64,000 bases of DNA from Candidatus Copromonas faecavium (nom. illeg.) (GTDB lineage: Bacteria; Bacillota; Clostridia; Lachnospirales; Lachnospiraceae): assembly GCA_018712915.1 (NCBI GenBank), contig DVGC01000001.1:103264-167263 (forward strand). Direction: 5' to 3'. The position numbers and the translations under genes were made by a program. Shown here piece by piece: positions 21,791-29,834 of the stretch. The notes under the pieces were generated by a model, which saw nothing but the letters and a program-made list of their open reading frames with translations, did no database searches and was not told where the DNA came from. Each line of letters begins with the position of its first letter. Position 1 is the first letter of the stretch.

Positions 21791-21851
21791 AGGGATAGAA
21801 TATGCAAAGGAGCCGCAAATATTCCCAGACCAGTTTCTTTTATCCAGCCGG

Positions 21852-22027
21852 ATTCCGGCAGTATATCATGTAAATTCCGGCAATGCATCGTGCGGATTTT
21901 AGCAATTTATTGTGCAAATTCTCACAATGCATCACGCGGATCCTGGCAATATATTGTGTGGACTCCAGCAATGTATCATGCAGATTCCGGCAGTACATCT
22001 TACGGAGTTCGGCAATTCATCTTACAG
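21852..22027 (+). repeat. 8 x 22-bp degenerate tandem repeat, consensus ATTCCGGCAATRYATCRTGCGG
   Basis: Eight contiguous 22-nt units aligned by hand; columns CA(8-9), T(11) and AT(14-15) invariant. Confidence 0.92.
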
Positions 22028-22051
22028 ATTCAAAAGAAAGGAGCTGCGCTT

Positions 22052-22747
22052 ATGGCCAACGAAACAATATTGATTGCAGACGATGATCCTGTAATCCGGA
22101 CGCTTCTGACAAAAGTTGTGGAGCGGAACGGGTTTCGCGCCGTCACCGCGCCGGATGGAAAGGAAGCCGTGCGTCTGGCCAGAAGCCGGCACTTTGATCT
22201 GATTCTTCTGGATATCATGATGAACGGCAATGACGATGGATTTGACGTTATCAGAAATCTGCGGGCCACCGGAAATCATATTCCGATTATCGTTTTAAGC
22301 GGACGGACAGATGATTTTGACACGCTTTACGGTCTTGATATCGGCGCCGATGACTATATTCCCAAGCCCTTCAATCCCGTTATCCTGGGTGCAAAAATAA
22401 AGGCTCTCATCCGCCGCAGCCAGAAAACATCCGAAGCGGTCCGTGATACCATTACAGCCGGACCCTTCTGCTACCGGGACGCCACTCTGGAATTTTTCAA
22501 AAACGGCAATCTGATTCCTCTTTCCGCCAAAGAAACGGTTATGATGAAGCTGTTTATCAGCAATCTTGGCCGGGTTTTTACAAAGGAACAGCTCTATGAG
22601 CTGGTCTGGGGAGAAACCGTTGTGGATGAAAATGTGATTATGGTTTATATCAGCCATCTGAGAAGCAAGTTAGAGGATCACCCCAGGACCCCAAAATATC
22701 TGAAAACCATCCGGGGACTGGGATACAAATTTTCCGTCGATGAATAA
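22052..22747 (+). CDS. OmpR/PhoB-type response regulator
   Basis: MANETILIADDDPVIRTLL receiver, winged-helix C-terminus; AAAGGAG upstream of the ATG. Confidence 0.92.
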   Translation: MANETILIADDDPVIRTLLTKVVERNGFRAVTAPDGKEAVRLARSRHFDLILLDIMMNGNDDGFDVIRNLRATGNHIPIIVLSGRTDDFDTLYGLDIGADDYIPKPFNPVILGAKIKALIRRSQKTSEAVRDTITAGPFCYRDATLEFFKNGNLIPLSAKETVMMKLFISNLGRVFTKEQLYELVWGETVVDENVIMVYISHLRSKLEDHPRTPKYLKTIRGLGYKFSVDE

Positions 22748-22819: not shown

Positions 22820-22854
22820 GGCCGGGTACCATGGCACATCCCATGGTCCCGGCC
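22820..22854 (+). terminator. Terminator-like hairpin after the response regulator
   Basis: GGCCGGG(T)ACCATGG-loop-CCATGGTCCCGGCC followed by TGTTTTG. Confidence 0.65.
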
Positions 22855-22856
22855 TG

Positions 22857-22904
22857 TTTTGATATCTGTGCTAATATCTGTTTTGATATCTGTTCTGATA
22901 TCCG
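22857..22904. repeat. 4 x 12-bp tandem repeat (TTTTGATATCTG-like)
   Basis: ttttgatatctg tgctaatatctg ttttgatatctg ttctgatatccg. Confidence 0.8.
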
Positions 22905-23009
22905 CTTTTCTTTTTGTATTCTGAGCTTAGTTCTTTGGTTCTATTTTATTCTGTATTTCGTTCTTGTTTTTCTTTCTGTCCGTAATATGATGTCCTGTTC
23001 TTACGTTTC

Positions 23010-27060: not shown

Positions 27061-28419
27061 ATGTCGGACAATCAGGATTCGGCAAACTCTTTATTTCTTA
27101 ATACATCACCGGCCAGGCTTTTCTTTCTGGCCGCCCTGCCCGGCGCCATCAGCATGCTGGCCTCTTCTCTTTACGGCCTGCTGGATGGAATTTTCGTCGG
27201 ACAGAGTCTGGGAGAAACTGCCTTTGCAGCTTTAAACCTGGCCTTTCCTTTTGTGGTGATCAACTTCTCCCTAGCTGACCTCATCGGTGTAGGCTCTTCC
27301 GTTCCCATCTCCATCAGTCTGGGGATGAAAAAAGAAAAGGAAGCCAACAATGTCTTTACCTGCGCCGTTTTAATGATCGTTTTTGCAGGAATCCTCATCG
27401 GTGCCCTTCTTTACACCATCGCTCCCTTCCTCATTGGAATGCTGGGAGCCGAAGGAGAGCTGGCTTCCTATGCGGTCCAGTACATGCGGGTCTATGCCAT
27501 CTGCTCGCCCTTAACCACGATCATATTTGCCATGGACAACTATCTGCGCATCTGCGGAAGAATTAAAATGAGCATGTGGCTGAACATTTTTATGTCTTTC
27601 CTGACCGGCGTTCTGGAATTTTTATTCCTGTTTATTTTCCGCTGGGGAATCTGGGGAGCGGCTCTTGCCACCTGTACCGGTATGATGGTCTGCGCCTGCA
27701 TCGCCCTGTTTCCCTTTCTCCGGGGAAACCTTCAGCTTAAGTTCTGCCGGCCGTCGTTTTCCTGGGGTCTGATGAAAAAAATCGTGGCCTGCGGAAGCCC
27801 CAACTTCTTAAACAACATCGCGGGAAGGATTACCTCCATTATTATGAACACGGTACTTTTAAGAACAGGCGGAGAAAGCGCTGTCACGATTTATGGAATC
27901 CTGATGTATGTGGGAGAAACAGTCCAGCCCCTTCTCTACGGCGTCTGTGACTCACTCCAGCCGGCTGTTGGCTACAACTGGGGAGCAGGAAGGCCGGACC
28001 GGGTGCAGGCCATTGAACGGTACTGCTTTACGGCCGGCGCCGTCATCTCCATTGCAGCCTCCGTCATCATGTTATTATTCCCGGCTCCGCTAATCTCTCT
28101 GTTTGCAGACAGCAGCGATCCGGTCTTTATGGAGCAAGCCATCCTGGCCATGCGGCTGTTCAGCACGGGATACCTAACACGGTGGTTTTCGTTTGCCTCC
28201 CAAAGCTATATGCTGGCAGTGGAACGGCCTGTTTCCGCTTCCATTATATCGGTTTCCACAGCCCTCATCTTCCCGGTCATCCTGATTGTGCTTCTTATGC
28301 CCCTGGGATTAAACGGAATCTGGCTCAATCAGCCGGTTACCTGCCTGCTGGCCGCCATTCTGGCCGCCTTTGTAATGAAAAAATTCCGGCATGATCTGAA
28401 CTCCGGCTCCTGCATGTAA
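27061..28419 (+). CDS. MATE family efflux transporter (MepA-like)
   Basis: 452 aa, 12-TM MATE sequence. Confidence 0.9.
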   Translation: MSDNQDSANSLFLNTSPARLFFLAALPGAISMLASSLYGLLDGIFVGQSLGETAFAALNLAFPFVVINFSLADLIGVGSSVPISISLGMKKEKEANNVFTCAVLMIVFAGILIGALLYTIAPFLIGMLGAEGELASYAVQYMRVYAICSPLTTIIFAMDNYLRICGRIKMSMWLNIFMSFLTGVLEFLFLFIFRWGIWGAALATCTGMMVCACIALFPFLRGNLQLKFCRPSFSWGLMKKIVACGSPNFLNNIAGRITSIIMNTVLLRTGGESAVTIYGILMYVGETVQPLLYGVCDSLQPAVGYNWGAGRPDRVQAIERYCFTAGAVISIAASVIMLLFPAPLISLFADSSDPVFMEQAILAMRLFSTGYLTRWFSFASQSYMLAVERPVSASIISVSTALIFPVILIVLLMPLGLNGIWLNQPVTCLLAAILAAFVMKKFRHDLNSGSCM

Positions 28420-28623
28420 CCCCGGGAGGTGTATAACTTCCGGCCCTCATATGCAGCACCCGGAGGCACGTAAAGCTTCCGGTCTTCACGCGAAACCCCC
28501 GGAGACACATGCGGCTTCCTGCTCTCACATATGACCCCGGGGGTGTGTATCGTTTTCGGCCCTCATATGCAGACCCCGGAAGCACGTAAGGCTTCCGGCT
28601 CCTACATATAAATTCCCGAGGTC
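28400..28623. repeat. About 6 copies of a 37-39-bp degenerate tandem repeat filling a convergent intergenic region
   Basis: CTTCCGGC-like anchors at 28400, 28437, 28476, 28515, 28553 and 28592 (spacing 37-39). Confidence 0.88.
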
Positions 28624-29834
28624 CTGGAGAGGATCGGCTCATAACCGGCCTCCCGCAGGACCTGAATGATCCTGTTCTTGTGTTCGGTGCCGAAGGACTC
28701 CATGGTAATCGTCAGCTCCACTCCGGCAGCACGGTTCACGTTGGCAAAGACATTGTGATCCAGCTTAATGACATTGCCCTGCTCCTTGGCAATCAGAGAG
28801 GATACGATGGCAAGCTGTCCCGGCTTATCCGGCAGCATCACCGTAACGGTAAAGATCCGATCCCGCTGCATCAGGCCATTCTGAAGCACGGTGGCCATGG
28901 TCAGCACATCCATATTGCCGCCGCTTAAGACGGACACCACCTTTTTGCCCTTAAAATCCAGGTGCTTCAGGGCGGCCACCGTCAGAAGGCCAGAATTTTC
29001 CACGATCATCTTGTGATTCTCCGCCATATCAAGGAACGACAGCGTCAGCTCTGAATCGTCAATCGTAAGGACCTCATCCACATTTTTCTGCAGATAAGGG
29101 AACAGCTTGTCTCCCGGCGTCTGAACGGCAGTACCGTCCGCAATGGTATTGATATGGGGAACGGTGGTCACCTCTCCCGCTTCCAGGGATGCCTTTAAGC
29201 AGGCAGCCCCTGCCGGCTCCACGGCAATGACCCGGATTTTCGGGTTCAAAAGCTTGGCCAGGGTGGAAACTCCGGTGCAGAGTCCTCCGCCGCCTACAGG
29301 AACCAGAATATAATCCACAGTCGGAAGCTCCTTCACAATCTCCATGGCAATGCTTCCCTGTCCGGTGGCAATTTCCAGATCGTTGAAGGGATGAACAAAA
29401 GTATAGCCATGTTCGTCAGCCAGCTCATAGGCATGGGCACAGGCCTCATCAAACACGTCTCCGTAAAGCACCACGTCGGCGCCATAGCCCTTGGTCCGGT
29501 TCACCTTGATTAACGGCGTAGCCACCGGCATCACCACCGTGGCCTTCACACCGGCCAGCTTGGCCGCATAGGCCACACCCTGGGCATGGTTTCCGGCGGA
29601 TGCCGTAATCAGACCCCGCTCCCGTTCCTCCGGTGTCAGACAGTGGATTTTATAATAAGCGCCTCGCACCTTATAGGCGCCGGTTCTCTGCATGTTTTCC
29701 GGTTTGAAATAAATCTTGTTTCCGTATCTTTCTGAAAAGTATTCGCTGTAAATCAGCTTGGTTTCCTGAGTCACCTTGCTGACGATTTCAGACGCTTCTT
29801 CAAATTTCTCCAGTGTCAGTTCCTGCATTTCCAT
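28602..29834 (-). CDS. ilvA: Threonine ammonia-lyase with C-terminal ACT domain
   Basis: FKPENMQRTGAYKVRGAYYKI PLP site, ASAGNHAQGVAYAA. Confidence 0.9.
   Translation of the reverse strand: MEMQELTLEKFEEASEIVSKVTQETKLIYSEYFSERYGNKIYFKPENMQRTGAYKVRGAYYKIHCLTPEERERGLITASAGNHAQGVAYAAKLAGVKATVVMPVATPLIKVNRTKGYGADVVLYGDVFDEACAHAYELADEHGYTFVHPFNDLEIATGQGSIAMEIVKELPTVDYILVPVGGGGLCTGVSTLAKLLNPKIRVIAVEPAGAACLKASLEAGEVTTVPHINTIADGTAVQTPGDKLFPYLQKNVDEVLTIDDSELTLSFLDMAENHKMIVENSGLLTVAALKHLDFKGKKVVSVLSGGNMDVLTMATVLQNGLMQRDRIFTVTVMLPDKPGQLAIVSSLIAKEQGNVIKLDHNVFANVNRAAGVELTITMESFGTEHKNRIIQVLREAGYEPILSRTSGIYM

Follow-up and report, generated by a model that had tools for sequence, protein, structure and literature searches.

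Several kinds of repeat in microbial genomes resemble the array described here. For small variable segments of E. coli to be classed as minisatellites, 90% identity of the repeat copies is required (PMC2884548). REP/BIME elements have palindromic units of 20–40 bp (PMC3733652) and are frequent between convergent genes (PMC1525189). MIRUs are tandem intergenic units of 40–100 bp (PMC3635867) and form a dispersed family, for which insertion at start codons has been described (PMC12548453). The tandem repeat regions of Borgs are located on extrachromosomal archaeal elements, are enriched in A and are recently formed (PMC9879509). A literature search for intergenic tandem repeats in Lachnospiraceae found no paper.

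The array lies in a 64,000-nucleotide window (the whole stretch of DNA that was analysed) of the Candidatus Copromonas faecavium genome, in the gap between a MATE-family transporter gene and a convergent ilvA-type gene, and it works like other intergenic minisatellites. The best reading, with a probability of roughly 0.75, is a degenerate minisatellite between genes that is confined to this locus, has an imperfect palindrome of 39 bp as its unit and was born by local duplication. It is probably non-functional (we infer that it is neutral) and seems to have arisen after the divergence from the sister species.

Similar to bacterial intergenic minisatellites and VNTR loci, the array is made of short units repeated in tandem between genes, its unit is locus-specific, and its presence differs between close relatives: it is present in C. 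faecavium and absent from the sister species (one genome each). Unlike in the E. coli class, its copies are far more degenerate (62% matches) and overlap two stop codons, and screens that require 90% identity would therefore miss it. With REP/BIME elements it shares a palindromic unit of 20–40 bp, an extragenic position and a convergent gap, and with MIRUs it shares tandem intergenic units that abut gene boundaries. However, REPs form dispersed families at many loci, and MIRUs are a dispersed 40–100 bp family that is inserted at start codons and coupled to a small ORF, whereas the MATE/ilvA unit occupies a single locus, has no family and overlaps stop codons in a tail-to-tail gap without a flanking start codon. 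As the many dispersed genomic copies that define REP/BIME/REPIN and MIRU repeats are not found, the array is neither a REP/BIME nor a MIRU. Tandem arrays of this genome resemble those of Borgs in that their units are independent and seldom recur at the corresponding position in the nearest relatives, and in that they are intergenic or run into ORFs (PMC9879509), but the MATE/ilvA array is degenerate, GC-rich and located in a bacterial genome bin.

Make-up and confinement of the array

The array spans window positions 28401–28621 and consists of five full, imperfectly palindromic units of 37–39 bp followed by a partial one. Unit 1 (28401–28437, 37 bp), which contains the MATE stop, is followed by unit 2 (28438–28476, 39 bp), unit 3 (28477–28515, 39 bp), unit 4 (28516–28553, 38 bp), unit 5 (28554–28592, 39 bp) and partial unit 6 (28593–28621, 29 bp), which contains the ilvA stop and whose minus strand is mostly the ancestral ilvA coding end. 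The MATE gene (27061–28419, plus strand; Pfam MatE, E = 1.5e-32) ends within unit 1 with codons for SCM and a TAA stop at 28417–28419. The ilvA gene (28602–29834, minus strand; Pfam PALP, E = 7.5e-79), which encodes a PLP-dependent threonine dehydratase, ends within partial unit 6 with codons for GIYM and a TAG stop at 28602–28604. An overlapping minus-strand ORF of 101 aa (28337–28642) was rejected as a gene, since it has no Pfam match and the 37–39 bp units shift the frame.

TRF reports the repeat at 28437–28609 with a period of 39, 4.4 copies, 62% matches and a score of 118, and none of 2000 first-order Markov shuffles of the array region scores above 57. Head-to-tail copies of a unit in the minisatellite range of ~10–100 bp are thus present above chance. 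The preliminary description of about six degenerate 39-bp copies overlapping the stops of the convergent MATE (plus) and ilvA (minus) genes agrees with the coordinates, TRF and the shuffles, and both copies quoted in it were located (28400–28429 and 28592–28621). Beyond what that description states, the array contains a 116-bp higher-order duplication of three units (28420–28598), in which positions 28420–28482 and 28536–28598 are 83% identical, and the self-match of the array region peaks at a shift of 116. The array has therefore grown in more than one step.

BLAST found the unit at a single locus in its own genome and gave no match among 97 relatives, and a covariance model of the unit detected no second locus in the genome (best off-locus E = 1.43). 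The array is therefore not a dispersed repeat family. An Rfam search with the array gave no match to a known RNA family, and a search for plasmid-borne relatives of the locus found none.

Gene ends in relatives and the source of the unit

The junction was compared with that of the sister, Candidatus Copromonas avistercoris (G001), and of the next relatives, G098 and G099, with one genome per species, mostly draft or metagenome-assembled. The sister proteins are 94% (ilvA) and 80% (MATE) identical to those of C. faecavium in amino acid sequence. The sister keeps the convergent MATE/ilvA pair, but its 1-kb spacer lacks any tandem array and carries a gene for a flavin reductase. This gene (L096, 6938–7525) has an 82% identical copy elsewhere in G099 and no ortholog in the C. 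faecavium genome, where the best match shows 28% identity. In G098 and G099, another gene of the same orientation comes after ilvA, there is no array at the ilvA end, and the genomes contain no MATE match at the threshold used.

All three relatives, none of which has the array, have kept the C-terminal end of ilvA (ATTTATATGTAR; ATCTATATGTAG in G099), so the array did not supply this end. The C-terminus of MATE that follows LN[S/A]G reads EKERG and stop in the sister but SCM and stop in C. faecavium, and none of 347 other gene tails resembles the unit as closely as the DNA of the latter tail does. The last three MATE codons and the stop are array-derived, replacing the EKERG and stop of the sister. 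The earlier proposal that one repeat family supplies both gene ends is thus half right: it holds for MATE but not for ilvA, whose end is ancestral. The preliminary description had also named absence of the repeats from a sister with equivalent gene ends as evidence against its account, and this is the situation in G001 at the ilvA end. An array may have been lost from the sister, whose spacer may itself be derived.

The ilvA tails of the array-free relatives are themselves unit-like. Expressed as the fraction of random 19-mers that match the unit as well, their scores are 0.0004 (L011), 0.004 (L025) and 0.013 (L010); being homologous to one another, these tails are not independent tests. In addition, a CCGG-containing hairpin-like sequence, read by eye, lies just past the ilvA stop in G098 and G099. 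These likenesses suggest that the ilvA end may have been the starting point of the unit, and this much of the earlier idea of a unit spreading from a gene end survives; no spread past this locus is seen. The ilvA tail of C. faecavium is modestly unit-like (0.02), and the evidence for the ilvA end as the founder is likewise modest. That value, together with a MATE end that too retains ancestral CCGGC (at LN[S/A]G), would suit a variant in which the ilvA-end likeness is a chance convergence and the founder was a MATE-side or spacer sequence, now lost. The variant is possible but not favoured, as two of the three array-free ilvA tails (L011 and L025) are clearly unit-like and the third (L010) is somewhat so.

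Most likely, sequence at and just downstream of the ilvA end was duplicated in tandem after the split from the sister, presumably through slippage during replication or through unequal exchange. The three-unit block of 116 bp was then doubled in one or more further rounds, and point mutations have since eroded the copies. As it grew, the array took up the convergent gap and overwrote the final MATE codons, a change that MATE tolerates. That the array overlaps the two stops reflects the tolerance of coding 3′ ends for change and not any targeting by the repeats.

Folding of the array and transcript ends

The predicted folds of the array are strong on both strands, with −109.3 kcal/mol (z −5.5) on the minus strand and −84.7 kcal/mol (z −3.0) on the plus strand. 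An imperfect palindrome (28565–28609, arms 28565–28583 and 28591–28609) adjoins the ilvA stop. The palindromy of the array, likewise unmentioned in the preliminary description, is greater than tandem repetition alone gives: among 300 column-permuted arrays of the same tandem similarity, none on the minus strand and four on the plus strand fold as well. This excess counts against a purely neutral array, which need not have it.

Such structure is what speaks for the bidirectional 3′-end or topological element that the preliminary description suggested. In such a role, hairpins would shield or terminate the transcripts of ilvA and MATE, or the array would serve as a supercoil-absorbing site between the convergent genes, like REP/BIME arrays. 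The convergent position also fits this role, as arrays are found in 12.8% of convergent gaps and 3.6% of divergent ones. Covariation among the units is, however, weak (43 of 500 shuffles reach the observed score, in an alignment that counts unit borders twice), and scanning both strands of the array revealed no terminator-like site, i.e. no GC-rich hairpin followed by a U-run that could act as an intrinsic bidirectional terminator. With the array also absent from the sister and from the ilvA end of G098 and G099, and with most arrays of its own genome unstructured, a functional 3′-end element is unlikely. The missing U-tract terminator is not in itself a mark of special function, as most array-free convergent gaps likewise lack one in a strict scan.

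Tandem arrays in the genus

Intergenic arrays were counted with simple ORF calls and TRF in stretches sampled from both genomes (L096–L116, L143–L162 and L183–L222), with 801 kb from C. faecavium, around one third of its genome, and 440 kb from the sister. Another 1,270 kb from other Lachnospirales, for the most part Lachnospiraceae, served as controls. C. faecavium has 29 arrays (3.6 per 100 kb), the sister 34 (7.7) and the controls 14 (1.1). Array density thus exceeds that of the controls 3.3-fold in C. faecavium (p = 2e-4) and 7.0-fold in the sister (p = 8e-11), or 2.3-fold (p = 0.014) and 6.6-fold (p = 3e-10) per intergenic base. G098 and G099, the two nearest other genomes sampled, are not enriched. 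The units are mostly unrelated, with seven weak cross-array pairs among 63 arrays, and for five array-bearing gaps an orthologous gap could be identified in the other species, where none has an array. A genus-level enrichment of mostly unrelated arrays is shown, on simple ORF calls and the sampled third of the genome. The excess is not explained by loss of MutS, SbcD or RecD2, as both species possess all three. The arrays show no purine bias, their mean being the same as that of other gaps.

The arrays overlap 16 stop codons, where random placement in the same gaps gives 14.8, and two start codons, where 10.4 are expected and none of 2000 randomisations is as low. Overlap with stops at the random level and avoidance of starts point to tolerance of sequence change and not to targeting of stop codons. 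Arrays are more frequent in gaps containing the 3′ end of a gene than in divergent gaps (Fisher p = 0.04), and to this extent the expected enrichment of arrays at gene boundaries is seen; it does not extend to the stop codons themselves. A fold z of −3 or lower is found in only 8 of 51 arrays (median −0.8). Structure is thus not a general property of the arrays, and the palindromy of the MATE/ilvA array is not the rule of the class.

Several other arrays were noted. A degenerate 44-bp array with 3.2 copies in the window (21849–21987) overlaps the start of an ORF (21890–22747), and a convergent gap nearby (22854–22965) holds two adjoining arrays with units of 24 and 30 bp, the first of which folds strongly (z −11.5). 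A near-perfect 104-bp tandem repeat (L104, 10223–10463) has 2.3 copies with 96% matches and very strong hairpins (fold z −11.8) and is located in a codirectional gap. Three differing degenerate arrays lie within 6 kb of one contig (L112, 10791–10942, 14336–14448 and 16341–16419), at or just past gene stops.

A more elaborate proposal has an unusually active genus-wide process that keeps making unrelated gap arrays and rewriting C-termini, with palindromic arrays adopted as bidirectional 3′-end elements; we consider it quite improbable. It is very improbable that a mobile repeat of a dispersed kind (REP/REPIN, MIRU-like or MITE) was inserted at the gene ends and multiplied there. The palindromic 39-bp unit speaks for such an origin. 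REP/BIME/REPIN repeats have a cognate RAYT transposase, and the sole Y1_Tnp (PF01797) match in the genome is a short fragment (profile positions 90–121) in a 76-aa frame (L117, G000:C6:11844–11936). Against this origin, the unit has no second locus in its own genome and no match in 97 relatives or Rfam, and the units of the other arrays are mostly unrelated.

A simpler account, supported by controls, thus replaces that of a repeat that makes gene ends. As repeats can grow into the 3′ ends of genes but not into their starts, overlap with a stop codon alone does not imply function. The genus-level excess of independent, rapidly replaced arrays is a natural system for studying what increases the birth rate of tandem repeats in a bacterial lineage and for asking how often such arrays rewrite the C-termini of proteins.
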